64,000 bases of DNA, taken from NCBI RefSeq assembly GCF_030815955.1, contig NZ_JAUSXK010000001.1, forward strand, positions 2,976,001 to 3,040,000. The letters are read 5' to 3'. Below the pieces are notes generated by a model. The model did no database searches. It saw only the letters and a list, made by a program, of their open reading frames with translations, and was not told the origin of the DNA. The position numbers and the translations under genes were made by a program. This DNA comes from Microbacterium murale. Its GTDB lineage: Bacteria > Actinomycetota > Actinomycetes > Actinomycetales > Microbacteriaceae. Position 1 is the first letter of the stretch, and every line of letters starts with the position of its first letter. Shown here piece by piece: positions 30,797 through 64,000 of this stretch.

Positions 30797-31204
30797 TCAC
30801 TGCTCGACGATGGCGATGCCGTCGATCTCCACGAGCATCTCCTCACGGGGCAGGCCCGTGAACACGGTGGTGCGCGACGGCAGAACGCCGCTGGGCGTGT
30901 GGGCGGTGACGAATTCGCCGTATGCGTCGTTCATGGTCGCGAAGTCCTCGCGCTTGGTGAGGTAGACGCGCAGCATCACGACGTCGTCGAACGTCGCACC
31001 CGATGCCTCGACGATGGCCTTGACGTTCTCGAGCGTGCGGGTGGTCTGCGCGGCGACATCACCGGGGAAGAGATACTCGTTGGTCGTGGGGTCGACAGGA
31101 CCCTGACCGGAGACCTGGACGAACCCTCCTTTGCGGACACCCTGCGAGAAAGTGTGCGCCGGCGCAGGAGCGGAATTGGTCGTGACTCGTGTCTTCGTGC
31201 TCAT
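30797..31204 (-). CDS. RidA-family reactive imine/enamine deaminase
   Basis: A 135-aa member of the YjgF/YER057c/UK114 family, which forms homotrimers and hydrolyses 2-aminoacrylate and related imines. The key arginine is in LPSRTTVFTGLPREEMLVEI and the substrate Glu in VEIDGIAIVEQ. QVSGQGPVDPTTNEY is the usual N-terminal motif. It is divergent from the D-aminoacylase-GH20 fusion with only 25 bp between starts, which may mean co-regulation through shared promoter DNA. Confidence 0.9.
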   Translation of the reverse strand: MSTKTRVTTNSAPAPAHTFSQGVRKGGFVQVSGQGPVDPTTNEYLFPGDVAAQTTRTLENVKAIVEASGATFDDVVMLRVYLTKREDFATMNDAYGEFVTAHTPSGVLPSRTTVFTGLPREEMLVEIDGIAIVEQ

Positions 31205-31222
31205 ACGACCAGCCTAGTAGCC

Positions 31223-31241
31223 TTGTTAGATGCCTCAACAA
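31223..31241. promoter_or_regulatory. ROK-type operator candidate in the ridA / fusion-gene promoter
   Basis: TTGTT at 31223-31227 and AACAA at 31237-31241 are inverted with 9 bp between them. The extended left half TTGTTAG equals the inverted right half of the site before the ROK repressor gene (CTAACAA). The site lies in the 25-bp gap and over the first codons of the fusion gene, so binding would block both divergent genes. Confidence 0.35.
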
Positions 31242-34200
31242 ATGTCGGAGCCGACGCTCGCTCACGTATCACTGAGCGCAGAACAGGCCGCAGCCGGGCG
31301 CGTACGCGTATACCGGGACGCGACCGTGGTCGATGGCACCGGAACGTCTCGTTACGTGGCGGATGTCGTGGTCGAAGGTGCACGGATCGTCGCGATCGTT
31401 CGCGAGGGCGACACCAGGACGATCGAGATCGAGCGCGGAGCCGTCGACCTCGAAGCTGTCGAGGTCGACGCGCACGGACTCATCCTCGCGCCCGGCTTCA
31501 TCGACATGCACGCGCACAGCGATCTGGCCGTATTGGAGGGGCCGGCGCATCGGGCCAAGATCCTGCAGGGGGTCACGACCGAGGTGATCGGGCAGGACGG
31601 CCTCGGCTATGCGCCGCTCGACGATGCGGTGGCATCCGTCATTCCCGCGCAGATCGCAGGCTGGAACGGCCTGCCCGCAGTCGCTCCCTGGCGCACGATG
31701 GGCGATCTGCTCGACGCGATCGACGCGGCGACGGTCGCGAACGTCGCCGTGCTCGTGCCGCAGGGCAATCTGCGCATGATGACGGTCGGTCACGAGAACC
31801 GCCCGGCGACACGCGCAGAGCTGCGGCAGATGACCGATCTGCTCGGCGCTGCACTCGATGCAGGCGCGTTCGGGATGTCGAGCGGCCTCACCTACACGCC
31901 CGGGATGTACGCCTCAACCTCAGAGCTCGAGACGCTGTGCCGCGTTGTCGCCGAACGCGGCGGCTACTGGGCGCCGCACACCCGAAGCTACGGCGCCACA
32001 GCACTGGACGCCTATCGCGAAGCGCTCGACATCGGTCGCCGCACCGGATGCCCCATCCACCTCACGCACGCCACCATGAACTTCGTACCGAACCGCGGTA
32101 GAGCCGATGAACTGCTCGCGCTGATAGATGAGGCCATCGCCGACGGCGTCGATGTCACGCTCGACACCTATCCGTATCTGCCGGGCGCGACCACTCTGAC
32201 GGCGCTGCTGCCGAGCAGGCTCGCCGAGGGTGGCGACCTCATCGCCGCGATCAGGGAGCTGGACGCTGACGGCCGAGAGGGGGTTCGGGTCGAACTCGAG
32301 GAGATCGGCTCCGACGGATTCCACGGCGAGCGCGCGGATTGGTCGAGCATCGAGATCGTCGGTACCGCGAACTCGGCTCTCGAGCCTCTCGTCGGCAGGA
32401 CGATCGCACAGATCGCGGAGGAGGACGGAAAGCGCGCGGTCGATGTCGTGCTCGACACGATCATCGCGGATGCCGGAGCCACCGGCATCCTGATGCACAT
32501 CGGCGACGAGGACAACGTGCGGGCGATCATGCAGCACGATCGTCACACCGGTGGCAGCGACGGTATCCTGATCGGCGCGAAGCCGCATCCGCGTGGGTTC
32601 GGCGCATTCACCCGCTATCTCGGTCACTACGTGCGCGACCTCGGAGTGCTGACGCTCGAGGAGGCGGTCCGGCATCTCTCCGGCACACCAGCAGCTCGTC
32701 TCGGCCTGCACCGCGGTGACGCGCCGCGCGGAGTGATCCGCGAGGGCGCGACCGCAGATCTCGTGCTGTTCGATCCCGACGCCGTCGCGGCCGGTGCGAC
32801 GTTCGACGCGCCGCGCACAGCACCGGTCGGGGTCGTCGAGGTGGCGGTCGCAGGCGTGCTCGTCGTCGCGGACGGCGTCGTCACGGGAGAGACTCCAGGG
32901 CGCGCTCTGCGGATGCCGCCAGCACCCCACCGCGCCACGGTGCCGTTGCTCGAGGCGCATATCGATCCTGCGGCCGCGTCATTCGTCTGGACACCGGACA
33001 CTCCTGTGCATGCTCCGGATGAGCTGGTAGCGGTCGCCGCGTTGCTGAAGCCGGGCGTTCCTGGCAGCGACATCGCAGGCGGTGGCGAGGCCGGTGCGCC
33101 GGCGATCACATTGGTCCTGGATGCAGCGGTGGGGGAGAGCGCGACCGCTGCCGGGCGCATCGGTGCCGAGGCGTTCCGCATCACTGCGGCGTCCGGCGGA
33201 ATCGAGGTGCGCGGGGCATCGGCGCAGGGTGTCTTCCGAGGCATCACGGCGCTGCAACAGCTGCGTCCACCAGGAGACGAGGTCGCTCGCATCCCTGCCG
33301 GAGGGTGGCAGGGTTCGCCTGCGTACGGCTGGCGAGGCGCGATGCTCGACGTCGCCAGGCACTTCCGACCCGCCGCCGACATCCGTCGCCTGATAGATCT
33401 GCTGGCGCTACACCAGCTGAACATCCTGCACCTGCACCTCACCGACGATCAGGGCTGGCGGTTCGAGGTGCCCGGCTTCCCGCGGCTCGCCGAGATCGGC
33501 TCGCGCAGAGAGGCGACGCAGCGGGGTCACGGTCCACTCGCCACCGTCGAAGCCGGCGTGCACGAGGGGTTCTACTCGACCGCGGAACTCCGCGAACTCG
33601 TCGAGTACGCGGCTGCGCGCTTCATCACGATCGTGCCTGAGGTCGAATTGCCGGGGCACGTGCAGGCAGCGCTCGCCGCCTACCCCGCTCTCGGGAACAC
33701 CGACATCTCCGGTTCCGACGGCGCAGGAGCGGTCACGTCTCCCTGGGAGCGCTTCGGAGTCAACCCCCGAACACTCGCACCCACGGATGAGTCGTTGGCC
33801 TTCGGACGCGCGGCGATCGACGCGCTGTGCGACATCTTCGACTCTCCATGGATCGGCATCGGCGGGGACGAGGTGCCGGTCACCGAGTGGGCGGAGAGCC
33901 CCGCGGCGGCACTGCGCATGCGCGAGCTCGGACTCGCGTCGCCTCGAGACGTGCAGCCCTGGTTCACCGCTCAGTTCGTCGATCACGTGCGCACGCACGG
34001 ACGCACAGCGCTGGCCTGGGACGAGGTACTCGAGGGGGATGTCCCTGACGGAGTGCGGATACTCGCATGGCGCGGTCCGGTCGCCCTTGAAGAGGCCATC
34101 CGCCGCGGCATCCCGGTCGTCGGCTGCCCGGATCTTGAGACCTATCTCGATTATCGGCAGTCCGAGTCAGGCGACGAGCCGGTGCCGGTGGGGCCGCCGC

Positions 34201-34589
34201 TGACCCTTGAGCACGCCTACACCCTGCGCCTTCCTCCCGGCGTGGTCGGTGGCCAGACCAACGTCTGGACCGAGCATCTGCCGACCCGTGACCGCGTCGA
34301 CTTCGCCATGTTCCCGCGACTCAGCGCGATCGCCGAGCGGCTCTGGGCGGGTGGCGACCCGGGAGACGGCACGGAGTTCCTGCGTCGCCTTGCCACGCAT
34401 CTGCGTCGCTTGACCGAGGCGGGGGTGCGATATCGTCCTCTCGACGGGCCTACACTCGATCAGCGGCGACCGGGCATCCCCGGAAAGCCGATGACGGTCG
34501 CCGCGCGGGAGCAGATCGTCGCCGATCTTGTTCACGGGCTGCGGGCACCCTCGCCGGACTCGTCGGAGCGAGGCGAGAATGAAAAGTAA
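31230..34589 (+). CDS. Fusion protein: N-acyl-D-amino-acid deacylase-like amidohydrolase plus GH20 beta-N-acetylhexosaminidase
   Basis: A single 1119-aa frame joins two enzymes. Residues about 20-560 are a D-aminoacylase-type amidohydrolase: metal ligands in GFIDMHAHSDLAVL (His94/His96), YWAPHTRSYG and PIHLTHATMNF, and the catalytic Asp in HTGGSDGILIG (about Asp444). The metal-bridging Cys of Alcaligenes D-aminoacylase is replaced (VIGQDGLGYAP). Residues about 590-1090 are GH20: YGWRGAMLDVARHF, HLHLTDDQGWRFEV and the catalytic pair in WIGIGGDEVPVTEW (Asp880-Glu881). There is no signal peptide, so both act in the cytoplasm. ATG at 31230 or 31242; neither has a Shine-Dalgarno. It heads an operon with ROK repressor, ROK kinase and nagB. 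Confidence 0.9.
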   Translation: MPQQMSEPTLAHVSLSAEQAAAGRVRVYRDATVVDGTGTSRYVADVVVEGARIVAIVREGDTRTIEIERGAVDLEAVEVDAHGLILAPGFIDMHAHSDLAVLEGPAHRAKILQGVTTEVIGQDGLGYAPLDDAVASVIPAQIAGWNGLPAVAPWRTMGDLLDAIDAATVANVAVLVPQGNLRMMTVGHENRPATRAELRQMTDLLGAALDAGAFGMSSGLTYTPGMYASTSELETLCRVVAERGGYWAPHTRSYGATALDAYREALDIGRRTGCPIHLTHATMNFVPNRGRADELLALIDEAIADGVDVTLDTYPYLPGATTLTALLPSRLAEGGDLIAAIRELDADGREGVRVELEEIGSDGFHGERADWSSIEIVGTANSALEPLVGRTIAQIAEEDGKRAVDVVLDTIIADAGATGILMHIGDEDNVRAIMQHDRHTGGSDGILIGAKPHPRGFGAFTRYLGHYVRDLGVLTLEEAVRHLSGTPAARLGLHRGDAPRGVIREGATADLVLFDPDAVAAGATFDAPRTAPVGVVEVAVAGVLVVADGVVTGETPGRALRMPPAPHRATVPLLEAHIDPAAASFVWTPDTPVHAPDELVAVAALLKPGVPGSDIAGGGEAGAPAITLVLDAAVGESATAAGRIGAEAFRITAASGGIEVRGASAQGVFRGITALQQLRPPGDEVARIPAGGWQGSPAYGWRGAMLDVARHFRPAADIRRLIDLLALHQLNILHLHLTDDQGWRFEVPGFPRLAEIGSRREATQRGHGPLATVEAGVHEGFYSTAELRELVEYAAARFITIVPEVELPGHVQAALAAYPALGNTDISGSDGAGAVTSPWERFGVNPRTLAPTDESLAFGRAAIDALCDIFDSPWIGIGGDEVPVTEWAESPAAALRMRELGLASPRDVQPWFTAQFVDHVRTHGRTALAWDEVLEGDVPDGVRILAWRGPVALEEAIRRGIPVVGCPDLETYLDYRQSESGDEPVPVGPPLTLEHAYTLRLPPGVVGGQTNVWTEHLPTRDRVDFAMFPRLSAIAERLWAGGDPGDGTEFLRRLATHLRRLTEAGVRYRPLDGPTLDQRRPGIPGKPMTVAAREQIVADLVHGLRAPSPDSSERGENEK

Positions 34590-34638
34590 CGTTTCGGTAA
34601 CCCTCCCACCCTGGCGGTGGGTCGCAGGTTGCGGAATT

Positions 34639-34663
34639 TTTGTTCGTAAGGTCTACTAACAAA
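34639..34663. promoter_or_regulatory. Inverted repeat over the promoter of the ROK repressor gene
   Basis: TTTGTT (34639-34644) and AACAAA (34658-34663) are exact inverted arms with 13 bp between; the arms equal the inner arms of the Bacillus XylR (ROK family) operator. The site ends one base before the ATG at 34665. TACTAA at 34654-34659 is a plausible -10 for a leaderless transcript starting at the ATG. Autorepression by the ROK protein is inferred. Confidence 0.5.
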
Positions 34664-34664
34664 T

Positions 34665-35852
34665 ATGTCCGAATCGGATGAGTTGAGTCAACCGGCACCG
34701 GCCGACTACGCGGGTGCCAGTTCGCACGCCTTCGGACCGTCCCGCCACCTGCGGTCGCGCTCAAAAGTGCTGCCCGAGCACGCCCGCGGACACAATCGCG
34801 CCCTCGTGCTGCAGACGCTCTACCACTCCGGTGCGATGAGTCGCGCCGACCTGTCACGCGAGACCGGATTGACCAGAGTGACGATCTCCGACCTCGTGGC
34901 GGAGTTCATCGCCGACGGGATCGTCGTCGAACTGGGCGTACGTGAGACTGCGGGCCCCGGCAAGCCTCCGATCCTCATCGACATCAACCGCCTCGGCCAC
35001 CAGATCATCGGTCTGGACCTCTCGGACGCCGAGTCTTTCAGAGGAGCCGTGCTGAACCTCGACGGCGAAGTGCTGGAGCGGCGTGAGCTCACCCGGCCCG
35101 AGCAGCCTGACGGCGACGCGGCATACGCCGCCCTGCTCGAGCTCGCCCGCAGTCTGATCGCCTCCGCGACCGCGCCGCTGCTCGGCGTCGGCGTCGGAAC
35201 GCCGGGCGTGGTGCGCCCTGACGGTGTGGTGCTGAGTTCACCGAACCTCGGCTGGACCGACTTCCGGCTCGAAGCGCAGCTCGGTCGTGACCTCGATCTC
35301 CCCGTGCTCGCCCGCAACGATGCCAATGCCGCCGTACTCGCCGAGTACACCTTCGGTGATGCAAGGGCAGACTTCATGCTCATCAAGATCGGTGTGGGAG
35401 TCGGCGCCGGGCTCATCGCCGGAAGCCAACCGCTGGTGGGCAGCCGCTTCGCCGCGGGGGAGATCGGTCACGTCGTCGTCGGCACCGACGGCGGCCCGCG
35501 CTGCGTCTGCGGCCGCGACGGCTGTCTGGAGGCCTGGCTGAGCGTCACGCGCCTTCGGGATGCGGTCGACGCGCAGCCCGCAGCGCGCGATGAGATCCTG
35601 CGCGATGCCGGCACCCGCATGGCAATCGCGATCGCGCCGATCGTGACAGCACTGGATCTTTCGGAGGTCGTGCTCTCCGGGCCCGCAGATCTTCTTGACG
35701 GCGTACTCATCGACGCGGCCACTTCCACCCTGCGGGAGCGCACGCTCGAGGGCGTCTTCGACGACGTCGTGATCAGGCTCACGGGTCAAGGCGACATCGT
35801 GCTGCGCGGCGCTGCGGTCATGGTTCTCTCCGCGCAGCTGGGAGTCTCATAG
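34665..35852 (+). CDS. ROK-family transcriptional repressor (NagC/XylR type)
   Basis: A 395-aa regulator. Residues about 35-105 form the winged helix (RGHNRALVLQTLYHSGAMSR, LTRVTISDLVAEFI); the rest is the ROK sugar-kinase-like fold with zinc motif CVCGRDGCLEAW and GEIGHVVVG for sugar contact. The kinase catalytic Asp position reads ARNDANAAVLAEYTFG, so sugar-binding residues are kept. It probably releases DNA on binding GlcNAc or GlcNAc-6-phosphate, given the genes around it. The stop and the next GTG share one base (TAGTG). Confidence 0.9.
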   Translation: MSESDELSQPAPADYAGASSHAFGPSRHLRSRSKVLPEHARGHNRALVLQTLYHSGAMSRADLSRETGLTRVTISDLVAEFIADGIVVELGVRETAGPGKPPILIDINRLGHQIIGLDLSDAESFRGAVLNLDGEVLERRELTRPEQPDGDAAYAALLELARSLIASATAPLLGVGVGTPGVVRPDGVVLSSPNLGWTDFRLEAQLGRDLDLPVLARNDANAAVLAEYTFGDARADFMLIKIGVGVGAGLIAGSQPLVGSRFAAGEIGHVVVGTDGGPRCVCGRDGCLEAWLSVTRLRDAVDAQPAARDEILRDAGTRMAIAIAPIVTALDLSEVVLSGPADLLDGVLIDAATSTLRERTLEGVFDDVVIRLTGQGDIVLRGAAVMVLSAQLGVS

Positions 35853-36817
35853 TGGTATCGGCAGTACAGGCCGGTCGTGTCGGCCGGTCCGTTCGCGTGG
35901 GCCTCGACATCGGCGGGACGAAGACGGATGCCGTCGCAGTGACGGACGGCGGCGAGATCATCGGACGCATCCGCCGACCCACCGGCTACGGTGACGAGGC
36001 CGTGGTCGCCGACGTCGTGGAGAGCGTGCGAGAGCTGCGCGCGGAGTTCGACATCTCAGCGTCCGATGTGATGAGTGTCGGCGTCGGAATTCCCGGTCTC
36101 GTCGACACGGCGAACGGCCGAGTGCTGCACGCGGTGAATCTGGGCGTCGAATCCCTCGACCTCGCGGCGCGGGCGTCGGAGCGCATCGGAGTGCCGGTCA
36201 TCGTCGAGAACGATGTGAAAGCCGCTGCCCTCGGTGCCGCCGCGTTGCGCGGTGACGCCCTGTCGATGGCCTATCTGAACCTCGGCACCGGCGTCGCCGC
36301 CGGTATCGTGATCGACGGCGGGATCTGGCGTGGATCACGTGGCACCGCCGGTGAGGTCGGGCACATCTCCGTCGACCCGAACGGCCGCGTCTGCGGCTGC
36401 GGGCAGCGCGGGTGCATCGAGACGCTCTGCGGCGGCGGTGCGCTCGCCCGTGCGTGGGGGCGCCCCGGGGCGCTGCCTGTCCGTGACATCTTCGACGCCG
36501 CGGACCAGGGCGACACCGACGCGCTCCTGCTCCGCGGTGACCTCGCGCGTGGGGCGGCGGCGGCGGTGCGCGTGCTCGTGCTCAGCGTCGACGTCGAGAC
36601 CGTCGTCATCGGCGGCGGTCTCACGGCTCTCGGCGATCGTCTCGGCGACAGCATCCGCGCTGCGCTCATCGCCGATGCGGCAGGGTCGCCGTTCCTGCGA
36701 TCGCTGCACCTGGATGAGAGAATCGAACTGCTTCCCCCCGGTTCCCCTGCGGCCGCTCTAGGTGCCGCGCTGGTCGGAGTGCACACACCCCAAAAGGAGA
36801 TCGCCACCCATGGCTGA
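35852..36817 (+). CDS. ROK-family sugar kinase, probable N-acetylglucosamine or glucose kinase
   Basis: A 321-aa kinase with the phosphate-binding GLDIGGTKTDAVAV, the catalytic Asp in VENDVKAAALGAAALRG, the sugar-contacting TAGEVGHISVD and zinc motif CGCGQRGCIETLCGG. It lacks a DNA-binding domain, unlike the gene before it. Position between an amino-sugar repressor and nagB suggests N-acetylglucosamine kinase activity that feeds NagA. GTG start in a one-base overlap; its 3' end overlaps nagB by 8 bp. Confidence 0.9.
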   Translation: MVSAVQAGRVGRSVRVGLDIGGTKTDAVAVTDGGEIIGRIRRPTGYGDEAVVADVVESVRELRAEFDISASDVMSVGVGIPGLVDTANGRVLHAVNLGVESLDLAARASERIGVPVIVENDVKAAALGAAALRGDALSMAYLNLGTGVAAGIVIDGGIWRGSRGTAGEVGHISVDPNGRVCGCGQRGCIETLCGGGALARAWGRPGALPVRDIFDAADQGDTDALLLRGDLARGAAAAVRVLVLSVDVETVVIGGGLTALGDRLGDSIRAALIADAAGSPFLRSLHLDERIELLPPGSPAAALGAALVGVHTPQKEIATHG

Positions 36818-37589
36818 AGTCGTCATCGTCGAGAACGCCGCCGCTGCGGGGGCACTGGTTGCAGACGAGATCGTGCGGCTCATCGTCGGACGTCCTGATG
36901 CGGTGCTGGGACTGGCGACGGGCTCGACGCCCTTGCCCGTCTACGAAGCGCTGCACGGCCGACTCGCCGGTACCGACGTCTCGCAGGTTCGAGGTTTCGC
37001 GTTGGACGAGTATGTGGGCATCGATCCGAAGCATCCCGAGAGCTACCGCTCCGTCATCGCACGCGAGGTCGTCGAGCCGCTCGGCCTGAACCCCGACCAG
37101 ATCCACGTACCGAACGGCGCGATCGAAGGCATCGAGCATGCCGGCCCCGACTATGAGGCCGCGATCGAAGCCGCCGGCGGTGTCGACCTGCAGATCCTCG
37201 GAATCGGCACCGACGGGCATATCGGTTTCAACGAACCAGGGTCGTCATTCGCTTCGCGTACCCGTGTGAAGACTCTCACCTCGCAGACCCGCGAGGACAA
37301 CGCCCGTTTCTTCGACTCGATCGATCAGGTTCCCATGCACTGCATGACGCAGGGTCTCGGCACGATCCTGCAGGCTCGTCATCTGGTGCTGCTCGCCTTC
37401 GGCGAAGGCAAGGCTCAGGCTGTCGCCGACGCGGTCGAGGGACCTTTGACCGCGATGCTGCCCGGATCGGCGATACAGCTGCACCCGCACGCGACGGTCG
37501 TCGTCGATGAGGCGGCCGCGTCGAAGCTCAAGCTCGCCGACTACTATCGCTACACGTTCGAGAACAAGCCCGCGTGGCAGGGGCTCTGA
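36810..37589 (+). CDS. nagB: Glucosamine-6-phosphate deaminase
   Basis: The 259-aa enzyme converts glucosamine-6-phosphate to fructose-6-phosphate and ammonia. Signatures: VLGLATGSTPLPVYEAL for phosphate, FALDEYVGIDPKHPESYR with the catalytic Asp, GIGTDGHIGFNEPGSSF, and the C-terminal DYYRYTFENKP. ATG at 36810 has AGGAG ten bases upstream; the frame extends further 5' only inside the kinase gene. Last gene of the amino-sugar operon that starts with the fusion protein. Confidence 0.96.
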   Translation: MAEVVIVENAAAAGALVADEIVRLIVGRPDAVLGLATGSTPLPVYEALHGRLAGTDVSQVRGFALDEYVGIDPKHPESYRSVIAREVVEPLGLNPDQIHVPNGAIEGIEHAGPDYEAAIEAAGGVDLQILGIGTDGHIGFNEPGSSFASRTRVKTLTSQTREDNARFFDSIDQVPMHCMTQGLGTILQARHLVLLAFGEGKAQAVADAVEGPLTAMLPGSAIQLHPHATVVVDEAAASKLKLADYYRYTFENKPAWQGL

Positions 37590-42133: not shown

Positions 42134-43282
42134 TCAAGAGAGCGGTGCGCCGGTCTGCACATGCACGACCCGAAGCTGCGCGTCCAGCAGCACGGCGTCG
42201 CCGAGGTACCCGGGCGAGAGCCGGCCGAGCCGTGCACCGAGGCCGATCGCCGCCGCCGGCGTCTGCGTGAGTGCGCGCACAGCCTCGACCAGTGTCGCGC
42301 CGGCCCCCACGGCACGTTGCAACGCGACGTCCTGCGTCAGCGTCGAACCGGCGATGGATCCGGTGTCGTCGGCGCGCGCGATGCCGTCGGTCACTGTGAC
42401 CTTGACTGCGCCCAGATCGTACTCGCCGTCGGCACTGCCGGCTGCGGCCATCGCATCCGTCACCAACGCGACCCGGCCGGGAGCCGTGTCGAAGATCAGC
42501 TTGACCACGTGCGGATCGAGGTGCACGTCATCGGCGATGGCTTCGAGCACGACGCGATCGTCGGCTGCAGCGGCGAGCACAGGCCCCGGCGCGCGGTGAT
42601 GGATGCCCGGCATCGCGTTGAATGCATGCGTGAGGATCGTCGCACCCGCCTCGAAAGCCTCAACGGCTGTCGCGGCATCAGCGCTCGTGTGGCCGACGGC
42701 CGCGGCCGCGCCCGCGGCGACGACCAGCCGGATCGCTTCGAGACCTCCGGGAAGCTCCGGAGCGATCGTGACCTGGCGCACGGTACCGCGGCCTGCGTCG
42801 AGCAGGCGCTGCACATCGGTGGCGGCCGGTTCGCGCAGCAGCGAGGGTTCATGCGCGCCGTGGTGGGCGGGGTCGAGGAATGGGCCTTCCAAGTGCGAGC
42901 CGAGGATGTCGGCATCCGTCGTCATGAGGTCGGCGATCTCGCTGACTCGGCGCGCGAGATCGTCGAGCGGAGCGGTGACGAGCGAGACCACCGCGCGCGT
43001 CGTACCGTGTGCGCGGTGCAGATCGCGTGCGGTGCGGATGGCGTCGATCCCGTCATCGAAGGATGCGCCGGCGCCGCCGTGGCCGTGGATGTCTATGAAT
43101 CCGGGCGTGAGGATCGCCCCTTCGCCCGCGAGATCGGTCGCGTCGATCACCGTTTCTGCGTCTGCCCAGTCGGCGCCCGTGCCGGTCGCGGCCACGTGGC
43201 CGGCCTCGAAACGCACCCAGGCATCCGCTGTCTCGACGCCGTCGGTGATGAGTCGGGCAGAGTGGATCAGAGTCGTGGTCAT
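42134..43282 (-). CDS. nagA: N-acetylglucosamine-6-phosphate deacetylase
   Basis: The 382-aa amidohydrolase removes acetate from GlcNAc-6-phosphate. Metal site GFIDIHGHGGAGAS, HLEGPFLDPAHHGAH, VGHTSADAATAVEA and THAFNAMPGIHHR, plus the catalytic Asp in ALVTDAMAAAG, are all present. ATG at 43282 overlaps the GH20 stop (ATGA). Together with the kinase and nagB at 35.8-37.6 kb it completes GlcNAc catabolism in this window, though in a separate operon. Confidence 0.95.
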   Translation of the reverse strand: MTTTLIHSARLITDGVETADAWVRFEAGHVAATGTGADWADAETVIDATDLAGEGAILTPGFIDIHGHGGAGASFDDGIDAIRTARDLHRAHGTTRAVVSLVTAPLDDLARRVSEIADLMTTDADILGSHLEGPFLDPAHHGAHEPSLLREPAATDVQRLLDAGRGTVRQVTIAPELPGGLEAIRLVVAAGAAAAVGHTSADAATAVEAFEAGATILTHAFNAMPGIHHRAPGPVLAAAADDRVVLEAIADDVHLDPHVVKLIFDTAPGRVALVTDAMAAAGSADGEYDLGAVKVTVTDGIARADDTGSIAGSTLTQDVALQRAVGAGATLVEAVRALTQTPAAAIGLGARLGRLSPGYLGDAVLLDAQLRVVHVQTGAPLS

Positions 43283-44778
43283 CGGGCGCTCCAAGCGATC
43301 TCGGTAGGGCGGTGGCCTTCCCATCCTGCGGCATCCCACACGGCGCCGAGGGCGCCGACGCGGTCGCGGAACGACACCCACTCGCGTGTCTCGGCCGGCG
43401 ACCAGGCCACCTCGGCGATCGCCGCGACGCGCGGGAAGATCAGCTGGTCGATGTCGTCGAGCGTCTCGATGGTCTCCGACCACAACGGCCCTTCGACGCC
43501 GAGGATCGCCTCGGACGGCAGACCATCGACGATCGTGGTCGGCTCCCACTCGTAGGCGGTCTGCAGGTCGATCAGCGCGGCCCAATCGAGTCCGAGCGGG
43601 AAGTCCGCATCGTACTTCTGGTCGAGGTAGGCGGTGTTCGACGGCGACATGATGACCGATCCGCCGCGCTCCGCGAAGCGGCGGGCGTCATCCGCGTGTG
43701 TGCCCGCCGGGGTCGTGCTGCCCCAGTACTGGCCGATCGTGCCTTCGGCGACCTGGGCGGAGCCCGCCTCGTGCCAGGCGATCGGCGTCTTGCCGAGCTC
43801 GGTGGTCAGCGCGGTGACCCGCTCGATGAACGAGTCGAAGTCCGCCTGTGCCGTGCCGAGGCATTCGTCGCCGCCGACGTGAAGATACGGACCGGGGGTG
43901 AGCTCTGCGAGTTCGGTGAGGACATCGCGCAGGAATTCCCACGTCGCACCCCCATGAATCTTCACGGAGGAGTGCCCGACGCCCCAGCCGAGGTACGGCT
44001 CGCCTGCCACGGGAAGCGGCTGCTCGAGCGCGCTCGACTGCGCGAGGAGGCCGTCGTTCATGACCGGCGCCTCGACGATCTCGGGATACGCGAGGCCGAT
44101 CGCGTGCGTGTGGCCGGGCAGATCGATCTCCGGCACCACGACCATGTGGTGCGTGGACGCGTACCGCACGATCTCACGGAAGTCGTCCTTCGTGTAGAAA
44201 CCGCCTGGGCGTCCCAGTACCGCCGTCGTCGAGCTGCGCTCGGCGAGCAGCGGCCGGCTGTCGATCTGCAGCCGCCAGCCCTGGTCGTCCGAGAGATGCA
44301 GGTGAAGGTGATTGAACTTGAGCGATGACGCCCGATCGATGAACGCCTTGACGGTATCGACGTCGAAGAACGTGCGGGCGACGTCGAGCATGACGCCGCG
44401 ATAGGAGAAGCGCGGAGCGTCGTCGATCTCGACGTGGGGGAGTCGCCCGCCCTCGCCGTCGGTCGCCAGCAACTGCCCCAGTGTCTGGATGCCGTAGAAG
44501 AGGCCGGCATCCGACCCCTCGAGCTGCACCTCCTCACCGATGCGCAGACTGTACTTTTCGCCCTGGCGGGTCGTGCGGCGCACGACGATGTCACCGGGCT
44601 GAACCGTGTCGACCGTGACCGCAGGGCGCAGCCCGGTGCGTTCGGCGAGCATGTCGGCGAGGACGGATGCCGCGGCATCCGCATCGTTCTCGACGATGAT
44701 GCGGGTCGCCGTCGTCAGTGACAGCGCTCCGGTCGACTCCGTGACGGATGAGGGCAGCGGAACAAGTGGTAGGACCAT
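43279..44778 (-). CDS. GH20 beta-N-acetylhexosaminidase (stand-alone)
   Basis: A cytoplasmic 499-aa GH20 enzyme. The small N-terminal GH20b domain covers about residues 1-120, then the barrel: FSYRGVMLDVARTFFDVD, HLHLHLSDDQGWRLQI, VPEIDLPGHTHAI and the catalytic Asp-Glu in YLHVGGDECLGTAQ. WSETIETLDDIDQL is the late barrel signature. It removes terminal GlcNAc or GalNAc from imported chitobiose or similar sugars. ATG at 44778 with TAGGTT six bases upstream suggests a leaderless mRNA; the longer TTG start at 44784 is less likely. It has no signal peptide. Confidence 0.93.
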   Translation of the reverse strand: MVLPLVPLPSSVTESTGALSLTTATRIIVENDADAAASVLADMLAERTGLRPAVTVDTVQPGDIVVRRTTRQGEKYSLRIGEEVQLEGSDAGLFYGIQTLGQLLATDGEGGRLPHVEIDDAPRFSYRGVMLDVARTFFDVDTVKAFIDRASSLKFNHLHLHLSDDQGWRLQIDSRPLLAERSSTTAVLGRPGGFYTKDDFREIVRYASTHHMVVVPEIDLPGHTHAIGLAYPEIVEAPVMNDGLLAQSSALEQPLPVAGEPYLGWGVGHSSVKIHGGATWEFLRDVLTELAELTPGPYLHVGGDECLGTAQADFDSFIERVTALTTELGKTPIAWHEAGSAQVAEGTIGQYWGSTTPAGTHADDARRFAERGGSVIMSPSNTAYLDQKYDADFPLGLDWAALIDLQTAYEWEPTTIVDGLPSEAILGVEGPLWSETIETLDDIDQLIFPRVAAIAEVAWSPAETREWVSFRDRVGALGAVWDAAGWEGHRPTEIAWSAR

Positions 44779-59511: not shown

Positions 59512-60696
59512 ATGGCGGAGCGGGCATCGAGCGTCGAACGCGTGCGAGCGGCAAATCTCGGCGAGGTGCTGCGGCTCGTGCATCAGCTCGGCCCGCGTTC
59601 GCGTGCGGTCATCACAGCGGAGACCGGACTGAACCGCTCCACTGTCGCGGATCTCGTCGCGGAACTCGCATCGCGCGGGCTCGTCGTCGAGCAGGAACCC
59701 GATCCCACCCGCCGAGTCGGCAGGCCGTCGCCGATCGTCGCGGCAGGCGACGATGTGATCGCCATCGCCGTGAACCCGGAGGTCGACGCGATCGAGGTCG
59801 GCGCTGTCGCCCTGTCAGGACGGGTACGTGAACGGGCTCGTGTCGAATGTGCGGAGGCGCCGAGCATCGAGGAAGTGGTCCGTGTCGTCGAGGGCGTCGT
59901 CGAGGGCTGGAGAGCGGGCACGCTGGCGGAGAGCCGGTTCGTCGGGATCGGCGTCGCCGTTCCCGGCCTCGTCCGTGTCGAAGACGGTCTGGTCAGGCTC
60001 GCTCCGCATCTGGACTGGCACGACGGCGACCTCCGATCTCCGCTCTCTGAGAGGGTCGGGCTTCCGGCAGCGATAGACAACGATGCATCGCTCGGTGCGC
60101 GCGCAGAACGGCTCTTCGGGGCGGCGCGCGAGCACAGGAACGTCGTCTACCTCAACGGCGGTGCCAGCGGTATCGGCGGCGGTCTCATTCTCCAGGGCGC
60201 GCTGATCTCCGGCGCAGGCGGATACGCCGGCGAGTGGGGGCAGACCCGTCCGAGCATCCCCGTCGAGGCCGACAGGCGTACCCGGGGCGGGGTCCTCGAA
60301 GACGAGGTCAACAGGGCAAGGCTGCTGCAGGTGGCCGGCCTGGGATCGGTTGAAGACCCTGCGCTCGCCGCCGCGCTCACCGACATGGATCGTCCGCAGG
60401 TCGCCGAGGAGGTCGTTCGTCAGCGGCGGATCCTGGCCGCGACGCTCGCCAACGCCGTGAACGTGCTCAATCCGTCCATGATCGTGCTCGGCGGATTCCT
60501 CGGCATGCTGAGTGAGAGCGACCCGGAGGGCTTCACTGCCGATGTGCGGGCGAACTCGCTTGCGGCACCCGGCGAGCAGGTGGAGATCCGCCCCGCCGCG
60601 CTGGGGGCCGATCGCCTCCTGATCGGCGCGGCAGAAGCGGCGTTCGCGCCGCTCCTGAACGACCCCGCCCGTACGCTCGACGCGCTCACGGTGTGA
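59512..60696 (+). CDS. ROK-family transcriptional regulator lacking the zinc motif
   Basis: A 394-aa protein with an N-terminal winged helix (NLGEVLRLVHQLGPRSRAVI, LNRSTVADLVAELASRG) and a ROK fold (GIGVAVPGLVRVEDGLVR, IDNDASLGARAERLFGAA, GGASGIGGGLILQGALI). The CxCGxxGCxE zinc site is missing and the usual GEIGH reads GEWGQ, so it may bind its sugar differently. ATG at 59512 is preferred for GGTGGGGG seven bases upstream; 59479 and 59491 are in-frame alternatives. Convergent with the aldarate operon (11-bp overlap), and it may instead control the GH3 operon. Confidence 0.85.
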   Translation: MAERASSVERVRAANLGEVLRLVHQLGPRSRAVITAETGLNRSTVADLVAELASRGLVVEQEPDPTRRVGRPSPIVAAGDDVIAIAVNPEVDAIEVGAVALSGRVRERARVECAEAPSIEEVVRVVEGVVEGWRAGTLAESRFVGIGVAVPGLVRVEDGLVRLAPHLDWHDGDLRSPLSERVGLPAAIDNDASLGARAERLFGAAREHRNVVYLNGGASGIGGGLILQGALISGAGGYAGEWGQTRPSIPVEADRRTRGGVLEDEVNRARLLQVAGLGSVEDPALAAALTDMDRPQVAEEVVRQRRILAATLANAVNVLNPSMIVLGGFLGMLSESDPEGFTADVRANSLAAPGEQVEIRPAALGADRLLIGAAEAAFAPLLNDPARTLDALTV

Positions 60697-62128
60697 TCGG
60701 CACGCCGTCCACACGGCGAGGGATGCGCAGCGGATTCTCTTCGCGCAGTGCGGCCGGCAGCACCGCGTCGGGCGCATCCTGAAAGGCGACGGGCCGCTGG
60801 AAGCGTCGCACAGCCGTGGCTCCGACGGAAGTGAACTGGGTGTTCGTCGATGGCCAGGGTCCGCCGTGCTGCTGCGCCCAGCTGACAGCGACACCGGTCG
60901 GCCACCCGCCGAAGAGCAGACGTCCGGCGAGGGGCTCCAGCCGGTGTACGAGGGCTGCGACATCCTCGCCGGGTGAACTGTGCAGGGTCGCCGTGAGGCT
61001 TCCAGGGAGAAGGCTCAGCGCAACGTCAAGTTCCGCCTCATCGCGATAGCGAACGAGGAGCGTGAACGGACCGAACACCTCTTCCAACAGGGAATCGGTG
61101 TTGACCCGTAGAGTGGCGACGTCGGTCATAGCGACCATCGATGAGGTGCCGTCGGAATCGCCGCTGGTCGCTGATGACATCATCTCGACCCCGCTGACGC
61201 CACGTACGCGCTCACTACCGGTCGTGAACCCGTCAGCGATCCCAGACGTGAGCATGCGCTGCTGCGCGGCGAGGTGGCGGGGCAGTTCCCGTTCCAGTGC
61301 TGAATCATGCGGGACGAGCACGACGCCGGGTTTGGTGCAGAACTGGCCGACGCCGAGCTGGAAAGAGGCAGCGAGTCCCGCTGCCAGGTCGGCACCCTGC
61401 TCCGCATCGGCCGCTGCGGTCACGACCACCGGATTCAGCGAGCCCAACTCACCGTAGAACGGGATCGGTTCCGGCCGCGCCGCGATACGGTCGATGAGCG
61501 CACGGCCGCCCCGCACCGAACCGGTGAACGCGACGGCGCGGATCCCGGCGTGATCCACGAGAGACAGACCCGCGTCGAACCCGGAGACCATGGCGAAAGT
61601 CCCTTCGGGTGCGCCGGATTCGCGCAGCGATTCGGTGACGATCTGCGCGGTCACGTCGGACGTCCGAGGGTGCCCGGGGTGCGCCTTCACGACGACGGGG
61701 CAGCCCACCGCCAGCGCTGATGCCGTGTCACCGCCGGCGATCGAGAAGGCGAACGGGAAGTTGGATGCCGCGAACACCGCGACCGGGCCGATGGGGCGCA
61801 GCACCCGACGCAGGTCGGGGACCGGCGGAGTGGCTGCAGGATTCGGGTGGTCGATCGTCGCCTCGAGGTACGAACCCTCCTCGATGACGTCTGCGAACTG
61901 ACGCAGTTGCGCTGTGGTGCGGGCGAGTTCGCCGGTGAGGCGCGGTATGCGGAGGGCCGTCTCCTCGTCGGCGATCCGGACGAGTTCGCCCGACCGCGCG
62001 TCGAGCGAACCGGCGATCGCCCGCAGCCACATCGCTCGTGTGATGTCCTCCGTACGGGCGAGCAGTGCGGATGCAGCGGCAGCGGAGCGCACTATGTCGT
62101 CGACCTCGCGGGGAATGCTCTCGTTCAT
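60686..62128 (-). CDS. 2-oxoglutarate-semialdehyde (2,5-dioxovalerate) dehydrogenase
   Basis: A 480-aa member of the KGSADH branch of aldehyde dehydrogenases. PIGPVAVFAASNFPFAFSIA, the general-base Glu in YGELGSLNPVVV and the nucleophile Cys in GVGQFCTKPGVVLV are typical of the NADP-dependent type in sugar-acid pathways. It would oxidise 2,5-dioxopentanoate to 2-oxoglutarate, the last step after the KdgD-like enzyme encoded at the far end of the operon. AGGAGG lies eight bases before the ATG. Sixty-one bp separate it from the dehydratase gene, filled by a GTGC-type repeat. Confidence 0.9.
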   Translation of the reverse strand: MNESIPREVDDIVRSAAAASALLARTEDITRAMWLRAIAGSLDARSGELVRIADEETALRIPRLTGELARTTAQLRQFADVIEEGSYLEATIDHPNPAATPPVPDLRRVLRPIGPVAVFAASNFPFAFSIAGGDTASALAVGCPVVVKAHPGHPRTSDVTAQIVTESLRESGAPEGTFAMVSGFDAGLSLVDHAGIRAVAFTGSVRGGRALIDRIAARPEPIPFYGELGSLNPVVVTAAADAEQGADLAAGLAASFQLGVGQFCTKPGVVLVPHDSALERELPRHLAAQQRMLTSGIADGFTTGSERVRGVSGVEMMSSATSGDSDGTSSMVAMTDVATLRVNTDSLLEEVFGPFTLLVRYRDEAELDVALSLLPGSLTATLHSSPGEDVAALVHRLEPLAGRLLFGGWPTGVAVSWAQQHGGPWPSTNTQFTSVGATAVRRFQRPVAFQDAPDAVLPAALREENPLRIPRRVDGVPITP

Positions 62129-62142
62129 GGTGATCCTCCTGG

Positions 62143-62181
62143 TGCGTGCGTGCGTTCGCGCGTGTGTGTGCGTGCGTTCGC
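62143..62181. repeat. Imperfect GCGT/GTGT microsatellite between two operon genes
   Basis: The intergenic stretch is almost entirely made of TGCG, CGCG and TGTG steps, including TGCGTGCGTGCGTTCGCG and its near copy TGCGTGCGTTCGCG. The short alternating purine-pyrimidine run is the only such tract in the window. It ends seven bases before the AGGAGG of the next gene on the minus strand. Confidence 0.7.
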
Positions 62182-62189
62182 GGCGATGT

Positions 62190-63260
62190 TCAGTGGAACC
62201 GGAGTCCGAGTCCGAGTCCCGGTCGGCCCGTGATCCAGCCGTTCGCGATGTCGAGCCCGGTGGGCTCGCTCAACGCTCCGAGTGCGGCGAATCCGGCATC
62301 CTCGACATCCTCTATCCAATTCTGCTCCGGTAGTGCGAAGGCCACCTGTGCCGAGAGCTCGGGGAGCAGATGGGGTGCGAGTTCCACGCGTCTCTCCCTG
62401 GCGAGCTCGGCGATCCGCAGGAACGGGGTGATCCCGCCCACCCGGATGACGTTGGGCTGGACGACGTCCACGGCGCCCGCGTCCAGGAAATCCCGGAAGC
62501 GGTGGACGGTGTGCAGGTTCTCGCCCAGCGCGACCGGCACATCGATGCGTCGGCGCAGCTCGGCATGGCCGGCGAGATCATCAGCGCGCAGCGGCTCTTC
62601 CACCCAGCCGAGGCCATGGACGGACAGCGACTGGATCCGTCGGGTCGCGGTGTCCAGATCCCAGCGCTGATTGGCGTCGACGAGCAGACGGCGATCGGGT
62701 CCGATCACCGATCGCACCGCCGCGACGCGGTCGAGATCCTCCGCAGGGTCGGGCCGGCCGACCTTGATCTTCACAGCCTCATTTCCTGCACTCACCCAGC
62801 GCTCGGTCTGTGCGACCAGCTCATCGAGCGTGTAGTGCAGGTTCACGCCGCTCCCGTACACGGGCAGCCGGCTATGGTTCCGGCCGAGCACTCCTGTCAC
62901 GCTCGTGCCTGCGACTCGCGCCCGTCTGTCCCAGAGAGCGAGATCGACACCGGCGAGTGCGATCGTCGTCACGCCGCCGCCGCCCGCCTCGTGCAGATGC
63001 GCCCACGCGTCACTCCATAGTTCGGGGACCGCCGGCCGACCGCGCAGGAACGGCGCGAGGTCATCGTCGAGCATCGCCTGTACGGCGGTGCCCCCGATCG
63101 ACGGCGTCCACGAGAAGCCGTGCCCATCGCTGCCGTCGTCGCAGACGACGGTCACTTCGACGACACGGATGTCGGTGACATCCTTGCCCCACGGACGACT
63201 CAGCGGAATACGGATGAGTCGGGTTCGGACGTCCGCGATCGCCGGGACTGCATCCGTCAT
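62190..63260 (-). CDS. Enolase-superfamily sugar-acid dehydratase
   Basis: A 356-aa mandelate-racemase/muconate-lactonizing type enzyme. The KxK base pair is in EAVKIKVGRPD, the Mg2+ ligands in RRLLVDANQRW, WVEEPLRADD and PVALGENLHTV, and the opposite base His in LAPHLLPELSAQVAF. It would dehydrate an acid sugar, most likely galactarate, glucarate or a related aldarate, to the 5-keto-4-deoxy acid used by KdgD. ATG at 63260 overlaps the KdgD stop (ATGA); exact substrate cannot be read from sequence. Confidence 0.88.
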   Translation of the reverse strand: MTDAVPAIADVRTRLIRIPLSRPWGKDVTDIRVVEVTVVCDDGSDGHGFSWTPSIGGTAVQAMLDDDLAPFLRGRPAVPELWSDAWAHLHEAGGGGVTTIALAGVDLALWDRRARVAGTSVTGVLGRNHSRLPVYGSGVNLHYTLDELVAQTERWVSAGNEAVKIKVGRPDPAEDLDRVAAVRSVIGPDRRLLVDANQRWDLDTATRRIQSLSVHGLGWVEEPLRADDLAGHAELRRRIDVPVALGENLHTVHRFRDFLDAGAVDVVQPNVIRVGGITPFLRIAELARERRVELAPHLLPELSAQVAFALPEQNWIEDVEDAGFAALGALSEPTGLDIANGWITGRPGLGLGLRFH

Positions 63261-64000
63261 CACGCCACGAGCTCCCTGCCGTCGGCGAGCAGTTGTGCGA
63301 GACGTTCGACCTGCGCGCCCGTCGGATCGATGAGCGGTGCGCGCACCGATCCCACAGGCAGCCCGCCCAGTCGGACCCCGGCTTTGATGAGGGACACGGC
63401 GAAGCCTGGCACCTCATCGCGCAGCGCGATCAGCGGTGAGTAGAAGCCGTCGAGCAGCCGGTGCTGCGCGTCGACATCGCCCGCGCGCAGCGCGGTGAAG
63501 AACGCGACAGCGATCTCGGGTGCCATTGCGAAGACGGCCGATGAGTACATCGGCACGCCGATCGCGGCGTAGGCGGCCTGGGTCATCTCTGCTGTGAGGA
63601 GGCCGTTGAAGAACAGGATGTCGCGACCGGATGCCTGTGCCCGGCGGACGAACTGCTGTGCGACGGCGAGATCGCCGACGCCGTCCTTGATGCCGACGAC
63701 CTGCGGCAGGCGCAGCAGTGCGCCGATCGAATCAGGGTGGAACTGCGCGTTCGCACGGTGATAGACGATGAGCGGCAGTTCGGTGGCGGCGGCGATGCGC
63801 TCCACGTAAGTGATGAGGCCCTGTTGGGGAGCGCCGACCAGATAGGGCGGAAGCACGAGAAGGCCCTCAGCACCCTGCTCCTGCGCTTCCTGCGCACACT
63901 CGATCGCGTGACCGAGCGGGCCGCCGGCGCCGGCGAGCACAGGAACTCTGCCTTTCGACGCTCTCACAGCGGCGCCCACGACTGCGGCGTTCTCACTGGC
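63260..64000 (-). CDS. kdgD: 5-dehydro-4-deoxyglucarate dehydratase-like protein (C-terminal part, cut by window end)
   Basis: The last 246 residues of a DapA-family lyase whose N-terminus lies outside the window. The Schiff-base Lys is in VVGIKDGVGDLAVA, and LPLIVYHRANAQF resembles the VYNRDNA motif of decarboxylating KdgD more than that of DapA or NanA. It would turn 5-keto-4-deoxyglucarate into 2,5-dioxopentanoate, water and CO2. With the enolase-type dehydratase and the semialdehyde dehydrogenase it makes a full aldarate-to-2-oxoglutarate route. A 2-keto-3-deoxypentonate dehydratase (Weimberg route) is the alternative. Confidence 0.85.
   Translation of the reverse strand, partial: ASENAAVVGAAVRASKGRVPVLAGAGGPLGHAIECAQEAQEQGAEGLLVLPPYLVGAPQQGLITYVERIAAATELPLIVYHRANAQFHPDSIGALLRLPQVVGIKDGVGDLAVAQQFVRRAQASGRDILFFNGLLTAEMTQAAYAAIGVPMYSSAVFAMAPEIAVAFFTALRAGDVDAQHRLLDGFYSPLIALRDEVPGFAVSLIKAGVRLGGLPVGSVRAPLIDPTGAQVERLAQLLADGRELVA

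Follow-up and report, generated by a model that had tools for sequence, protein, structure and literature searches.

A GH20-amidohydrolase fusion of Microbacterium as a candidate two-site enzyme for C1-oxidised chitin fragments

We describe a fusion protein of 1119 residues from the actinobacterium Microbacterium murale, encoded on the forward strand at 31230..34589 of a 64,000-nucleotide stretch of its genome (NCBI RefSeq contig NZ_JAUSXK010000001.1, positions 2,976,001 to 3,040,000; this whole stretch is the window, to which all coordinates refer). An amidohydrolase of the D-aminoacylase fold (residues ~14-565) is joined in it to a GH20 hexosaminidase (~565-1080). The domains, residues, gene order and co-occurrence that we observed make it fairly probable, in our judgement, that this protein works in the cytoplasm on C1-oxidised fragments of chitin and has two active sites, of which the GH20 half would free N-acetylglucosamine (GlcNAc) and the amidohydrolase half would deacetylate the oxidised end, 2-acetamido-2-deoxygluconic acid (GlcNAc1A).

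A two-domain fusion of the genus Microbacterium

The gene is a single stop-free frame of 1119 codons, and its product matches Amidohydro_3 (residues 78-546), Glyco_hydro_20b (579-690) and Glyco_hydro_20 (699-1040), all above the Pfam gathering scores; for the two GH20 families the scores are 287.5 bits (PF00728, cut-off 22.3) and 32.1 bits (PF02838, cut-off 26.1). Translation and domain matches thus bear out the initial annotation of this DNA, which read one uninterrupted frame with both enzyme halves. The amidohydrolase half (residues 26-565; 31305..32924, forward strand) carries H94, H96, H250, H280 and D444, with D123 in the place of a Cys, and is followed by the linker with GH20 domain 2 (residues 566-698; 32925..33323, forward) and by the GH20 catalytic domain with its D880-E881 pair (residues 699-1040; 33324..34349, forward). 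Conservation is lowest, among three stretches of the fusion compared, at residues 562-644. Both catalytic sets named in the annotation hold, as H94, H96, D444, D880 and E881 are invariant in an alignment of nine fusions, namely the window protein and eight orthologues. The translation does not begin with a hydrophobic, signal-like stretch, although no signal-peptide predictor was run; this agrees with the annotated lack of a signal peptide, and the fusion is probably cytoplasmic. The model for NagA (TIGR00221) is absent from the 24 NCBIfam families that match the fusion at 1e-3.

A survey of 58 genomes, the window's own included, recovered eight near-full-length orthologues and a ninth truncated where its contig stops, with identities of 73-76%. 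Within the genus, 88 of 295 genomes gave a match to the fusion: 67 full-length fusions, seven that partly lack the amidohydrolase, one broken, one with the amidohydrolase only, nine single-domain relatives and three with a GH20 match only. The figure of 67 was counted by hand from the match listing and includes one fusion spread over two contigs (genome G220), one whose single frame was reported as two pieces (G494) and one whose frame is broken in its fetched DNA (G635). Full-length copies with the same domain order therefore occur in 67 of these 295 genomes, and this, together with the 73-76% identical orthologues, excludes a local error as the source of the frame: the fusion is real and not an artefact. 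Nor is it a one-off, as about a quarter of the sampled genomes of the genus carry it, and in a tree built from 98 amidohydrolase rows all 21 fusions cluster together (support 100). In a class-wide survey of 394 genomes, those of the matches listed that span both halves all belong to this genus. In a collection of named genomes the fusions (loci L058-L071) all come from Microbacterium or one unplaced member of the Microbacteriaceae, in a scan that used two peptide patterns of the amidohydrolase half only, retained the best 80 of 497 loci and would miss fusions built on other amidohydrolases.

Gene neighbourhoods and the predicted pathway

The ong cluster is described as comprising a GH20 enzyme (OngA), a D-aminoacylase-like enzyme (OngB), a deaminase (OngC), a RidA protein (OngD) and the kinase KdgK (PMC9537276; PMC12017989), with deacetylation, deamination with RidA, phosphorylation of 2-keto-3-deoxygluconate (KDG) and cleavage of its 6-phosphate (KDPG) as the successive steps (PMC9537276). 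Single-domain relatives of the amidohydrolase half occur in Streptomyces, Kitasatospora, Kribbella, Nocardia, Rhodococcus, Arthrobacter, Saccharopolyspora and others. An OngC-like gene lies directly upstream in 63 of 66 such loci, and within six genes 64 of the loci have RidA, 59 an IclR regulator, 52 PfkB and 42 a KDPG aldolase; a GntP-like gene is near 43 of the 66, four examples being Pfam GntP permeases. The OngC-like proteins scanned all have a D-serine dehydratase domain and mostly an alanine-racemase-type domain as well, and the one PfkB protein tested against NCBIfam matched best, below its cut-off, the KDG kinase model. The deaminase, RidA, kinase and aldolase of this neighbourhood have functions of the ong pathway, and together with the permease they suggest that the substrate is an N-acetylated sugar acid, of which GlcNAc1A from oxidised chitin is an example. 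Unfused arrangements with a GH20 gene also exist: genome G042 combines a BCCT transporter, GH20, the amidohydrolase, OngC-like, RidA, a ROK regulator, an ABC importer, a ROK kinase and NagB, and four single-domain loci grouped in the tree, mostly of Microbacterium (L072-L075), have a GH20 gene nearby and no GntP-like gene.

The genes of the relatives came from a simple caller, which missed the RidA of locus L180 (recovered by tblastn) and gave no genes for L184, L185, L186 and L188. Loci L184, L186 and L188, whose genomes belong to family f44 and measure 1.3-1.5 Mb, encode a related amidohydrolase (E about 1e-150) with OngC-like (34-36%) and RidA-like (40-42%) genes at most 14 kb away by tblastn; of two further small genomes, L187 showed only RidA-like genes and L185 neither kind. 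The cluster may hence extend to small-genome actinobacteria.

At 13 named fusion loci ridA, a ROK regulator, a ROK kinase and nagB are each present in all 13, and in 11 an OngC-like gene stands between ridA and the fusion, directly 5' of the latter. No PfkB was counted at these 13 loci and no GntP-like gene lies within 8 kb of the fusions, the latter being expected if the oligosaccharide is imported uncut. It is about an even prospect, in our estimate, that a single GH20 fusion event in Microbacterium gave one protein that both splits an imported oxidised chitooligosaccharide and deacetylates its acid end, replacing extracellular splitting and a GntP importer.

Co-occurrence across the 295 genomes of the genus also counts in favour of a role in the use of oxidised chitin. 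An OngC-like gene (E <= 1e-55) is present in 67/67 genomes with the full fusion versus 53/228 others (p=1.8e-33); 56 of the 67 have the operon type (56 matches at 60-100% identity, which by eye abut or overlap the fusion by coordinates) and 11 a distant gene only. Genes for AA10 lytic polysaccharide monooxygenases (LPMOs) occur in 9/295 genomes, of which 9/74 with a fusion or deleted fusion versus 0/221 others (p=2.7e-6), and eight of these nine have an intact fusion and an operon-type OngC. Deletion of the amidohydrolase barrel is seen in none of 56 genomes with operon-type OngC versus 7 of 18 without it (p=1.8e-5). At these seven loci (L174-L179 and L169; genomes G522, G664, G519, G637, G469, G543 and G239) the GH20 part is kept in frame and the erosion of the barrel varies in extent, with little recognisable before GH20 at L177 and L178 beyond the first ~90 residues and a part from about residue 475. 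RidA gave no tblastn match in the fetched stretch at six of the seven and was found at one. Selective loss of OngC, RidA and the barrel, with ROK, ROK kinase and NagB intact, is confined to L175 and L176; L180 presents the converse, having lost GH20 and retained the amidohydrolase and RidA. We read this as two modules, one of amidohydrolase, OngC and RidA, the other of GH20 and the GlcNAc genes.

The window locus has itself lost its operon deaminase gene: an OngC-like gene is missing there and from three of the eight orthologue loci fetched at the outset, those of G014, G021 and G022. The window fusion has taken over the control region and start codon of OngC, which at that site in other loci (L022, L024) starts MPLQIPDP, against MPQQMSEP for the window fusion. 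The window genome, G014, G021 and G022 have another OngC-like gene (~50% identical) at most ~2 kb from a KDPG aldolase gene, near which G014 and G022 also have a second, single-domain amidohydrolase of the same subfamily; in the window genome the fusion is the sole full-length relative of its amidohydrolase. The tree places fusions without OngC at several positions, which suggests that the gene was lost from fusion loci more than once.

We propose the following course. The GH20 half, with the fold and catalytic pair of its family, would trim GlcNAc from imported GlcNAc-GlcNAc1A (chitobionic acid) or from longer oxidised chitooligosaccharides. The amidohydrolase half, with its fold and most catalytic residues in place, would then take the acetate off GlcNAc1A to give D-glucosaminate, by means of a single metal bound to D123, H250 and H280 and of D444, which would serve as the acid-base. 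The OngC-like deaminase, a pyridoxal-phosphate enzyme, together with RidA would convert glucosaminate to KDG, from which KDG kinase and KDPG aldolase would yield pyruvate and glyceraldehyde-3-phosphate. The released GlcNAc would pass through the ROK kinase, NagA (from the nagA-like gene described below) and NagB, with the ROK repressor as the putative switch. In the window genome the distant OngC homologue beside the KDPG aldolase gene would have to supply the deamination, and as this genome has no AA10 LPMO match it would rely on fragments made by others.

The amidohydrolase pocket and competing substrates

When aligned to D-aminoacylase, the fusion keeps H94, H96, H250, H280, D444, Y314 and R455. 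The codon for D123, in a GQDG motif (31596..31598, forward), replaces that of the metal-binding Cys of subtype V amidohydrolases. Over the 98 aligned rows this position is Asp in 96 and Cys in two classical rows; the loss of the bridging Cys, in which the annotation saw a hint of a substrate other than that of classical D-aminoacylases, is thus real, and what it marks is a separate subfamily. H94, H96 and D444 are present in 98/98 rows, so that the catalytic Asp and the His-X-His motif are retained throughout. Asp123 is found in 21/21 aligned fusions, which keep the His residues (H250, H280) of the Cys/His/His metal site of OngB and lack its Cys. The carboxylate-binding Lys of D-aminoacylase and OngB aligns with Thr282, which is Thr in 21/21 fusions and 64/68 single-domain relatives; neither this Lys nor the Cys ligand, the two marks of a D-aminoacylase, is hence present. 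From the OngB set Lys254/Tyr285/Arg379, mapped via D-aminoacylase, Tyr314 and Arg455 survive, and Ser292/Gln298, mapped via D-aminoacylase and N-acyl-D-glutamate deacylase, correspond to Thr321 and Arg330. Position 330 is Arg in 21/21 fusions and Trp in 66/68 single-domain relatives. The specificity position is given as Gln in OngB, Leu in D-aminoacylase and Arg in N-acyl-D-glutamate deacylase (PMC12017989). The amidohydrolase half thus appears to be a functional metal deacylase from a distinct subfamily, and its pocket cannot be inferred from the known ones.

A second clade of GQDG amidohydrolases, with His replacing the Lys, is seen at L037, L038, L040, L049, L051 and L032. At L049 and L051 it sits with OngC-like, PfkB, KDPG aldolase and IclR genes, from which placement some genomes (G014, G022) would have two deacetylase types.

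Several observations weigh against oxidised chitin as the substrate or against the strength of its support. The metal Cys, Lys, Ser and Gln positions of OngB hold Asp123, Thr282, Thr321 and Arg330, the last aligning with the side-chain-binding Arg of N-acyl-D-glutamate deacylase, and a fold comparison ends in a tie between OngB and the D-aminoacylases. OngC-like genes are not specific to fusion genomes, occurring in 34/207 without any fusion match, and 7/7 deletion genomes still hold one elsewhere; the distant OngC-like gene of G014 and G022 may serve the second, single-domain deacetylase. NagB and the ROK kinase have also gone at four of the seven deletion loci (L169, L177, L178, L179), so the loss of RidA at those four is not specific. 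The window operon has no deaminase, and its candidate KDG kinase (53%) is located elsewhere; in the first survey none of the ten fusion genomes, among them that of the window, had an AA10 LPMO. The p-values of association treat genomes as independent, ignoring shared ancestry.

The initial annotation had suggested for the protein a role in recycling of peptidoglycan fragments or lipoglycopeptides, through deacylation of an N-acyl-D-amino acid or an N-acyl sugar. A role of the amidohydrolase half as an N-acyl-D-amino-acid deacylase in recycling of D-amino acids or peptidoglycan fragments would suit its fold, the match of most catalytic residues to D-aminoacylase and the alignment of Arg330 with the side-chain Arg of N-acyl-D-glutamate deacylase. 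D-serine-dehydratase-like enzymes and RidA also act on D-amino acids. We nevertheless hold this role to be unlikely, as the fusion has neither the metal Cys nor the conserved Lys, and as the KDG kinase-like PfkB, KDPG aldolase and gluconate-type GntP genes by the single-domain relatives, and likewise the fusion to GH20, demand a sugar acid. The relatives' neighbours, with their OngC-like and RidA genes, thus indicate an N-acetylated sugar acid in place of recycling; the N-acyl-sugar option of the annotation fits, and its recycling of peptidoglycan fragments or lipoglycopeptides is unsupported.

Alternatively, the amidohydrolase half could deacetylate free GlcNAc to glucosamine, so that GH20, deacetylase, a ROK glucosamine kinase and NagB would form a route bypassing NagA. 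The operon indeed has a kinase and NagB and no nagA, and Thr282 stands where OngB and D-aminoacylase bind the substrate carboxylate. However, a nagA-like gene lies ~4.5 kb past the operon, and such a route would have no use for the OngC-like deaminase and the RidA found alongside the amidohydrolase, or for the KDG kinase-like, KDPG aldolase and GntP genes by the single-domain relatives; we regard it as improbable. The same pathway logic might instead apply to another N-acetyl amino-aldonic acid (e.g. galacto or manno) or to a differently linked GH20 substrate, given that the residues by which OngB reads sugar hydroxyls are not conserved and that the fusions share Arg330 versus the prevailing Trp of their single-domain relatives. 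LPMO_10 also includes cellulose-active enzymes. The confinement of AA10 LPMO genes to genomes with a fusion or deleted fusion favours chitin, and we give this variant little credence. Hence, GlcNAc1A from oxidised chitin is the substrate that we prefer.

The window operon and known systems

The operon order given in the annotation, fusion, ROK repressor, ROK kinase and nagB with a divergent ridA, was confirmed by domain matches, with the ROK kinase and nagB supplying the GlcNAc-type genes noted downstream. ridA, the counterpart of OngD, lies at 30797..31204 (reverse strand; PF01042, 3.9e-31). The ROK-family repressor occupies 34665..35852 (forward; start possibly at 34767) and matches PF00480, with a MarR_2 helix-turn-helix match below cut-off. 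It is followed by a ROK sugar kinase, a probable GlcNAc kinase (35852..36817, forward; PF00480, 7.8e-57), and by nagB for glucosamine-6-phosphate deaminase (36810..37589, forward; NF001684 399 bits, cut-off 326; TIGR00502 239 bits, cut-off 236.9). Outside the operon, the gene for a nagA-like GlcNAc-6-phosphate deacetylase (42134..43282, reverse; TIGR00221 222.8 bits, below the cut-off of 225.65) overlaps that for a second, unfused GH20 (43279..44778, reverse), 32% identical to the GH20 half of the fusion. Farther away, 60686-63940 (reverse) encodes an aldehyde dehydrogenase, an enolase-superfamily sugar-acid dehydratase (best model L-talarate/galactarate dehydratase, below cut-off) and a third protein that by eye has the look of a dihydrodipicolinate-synthase-type aldolase.

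A conserved control region at 31218..31241 (forward) combines a -10-like TAGCCT with a candidate operator, TTGTTAG-ATGCC-TCAACAA. The -10 consensus is TANNNT; here TAGCCT ends 6 bases 5' of the start codon, as in leaderless genes, and the candidate operator overlaps that codon. With up to two mismatches the operator pattern has 3 matches in the window versus 0.07 expected, the exact one only at 31218..31241. Closely similar blocks stand beside ridA in 13 loci (L058-L070), with small changes elsewhere and with TCG replacing ATG in L064. The position of the start codon inside a promoter- and operator-like block suggests leaderless translation of the operon. An inverted repeat 5' of the ROK gene (34636..34666, forward; TTTGTT..TAACAAA, 13-nt arms, 85% complementary) is a candidate autoregulatory operator that recurs in the relatives' stretches and is altered in L058 and L065.

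What is known already is the fold family of each half and, from the ong system, the logic of the pathway. In Pseudoalteromonas prydzensis, deletion of the gene for OngB, OngC, OngD (RidA) or KdgK is reported to have ended growth on GlcNAc1A, and the complete oxidised-chitin pathway is ascribed to Gammaproteobacteria and one betaproteobacterium (PMC9537276). AA10 LPMO genes are present in 120/394 actinobacterial genomes of the class. Among open-licence PMC articles, judged by titles and the starts of abstracts, we found no paper on actinobacterial use of the C1-oxidised end product, nor, by listings of the same source, the fusion, the Asp-for-Cys subfamily or an actinobacterial version of the pathway. 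If our proposal is correct, it would allow the missing pathway genes of Streptomyces and its relatives to be identified, and the fusion would offer a ready two-step catalyst for GlcNAc-GlcNAc1A.

The best PDB sequence match of the GH20 half (2.5e-112) is the Arthrobacter aurescens beta-N-acetylhexosaminidase (3rcn), whose 543-residue chain has no amidohydrolase half. From D-aminoacylase (1m7j) and N-acyl-D-glutamate deacylase (3gip) the fusion differs in that the active-site Cys and Lys are both replaced. OngB, the GlcNAc1A deacetylase of P. prydzensis (PDB 9kb1, 9kb3; PMC12017989), is 33% identical to the fusion over the structural alignment and differs from the fusion in its metal Cys (Asp in the fusion), its carboxylate-binding Lys (Thr) and its specificity residues, and in not being fused to GH20. 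OngA resembles the GH20 half as a hexosaminidase encoded alongside a D-aminoacylase-like enzyme and RidA, but is described as a separate periplasmic protein (PMC9537276), a likeness drawn from that description and not from compared sequences. As the fusion lacks the residues that identify OngB, we describe it as working like OngA plus OngB and not as a member of the OngB family. The predicted operon of Paraglaciecola hydrolytica PhNah20A likewise unites GH20, a D-aminoacylase, an amino acid deaminase and RidA; there, however, the proteins are separate, the host is a gammaproteobacterium, and a MurR/RpiR regulator and a sodium:solute symporter are listed in place of ROK genes and NagB (PMC7014002). 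The fusion points to a way of living on oxidised chitin for which the demonstrated cases to date all lie in bacteria of a very different kind.

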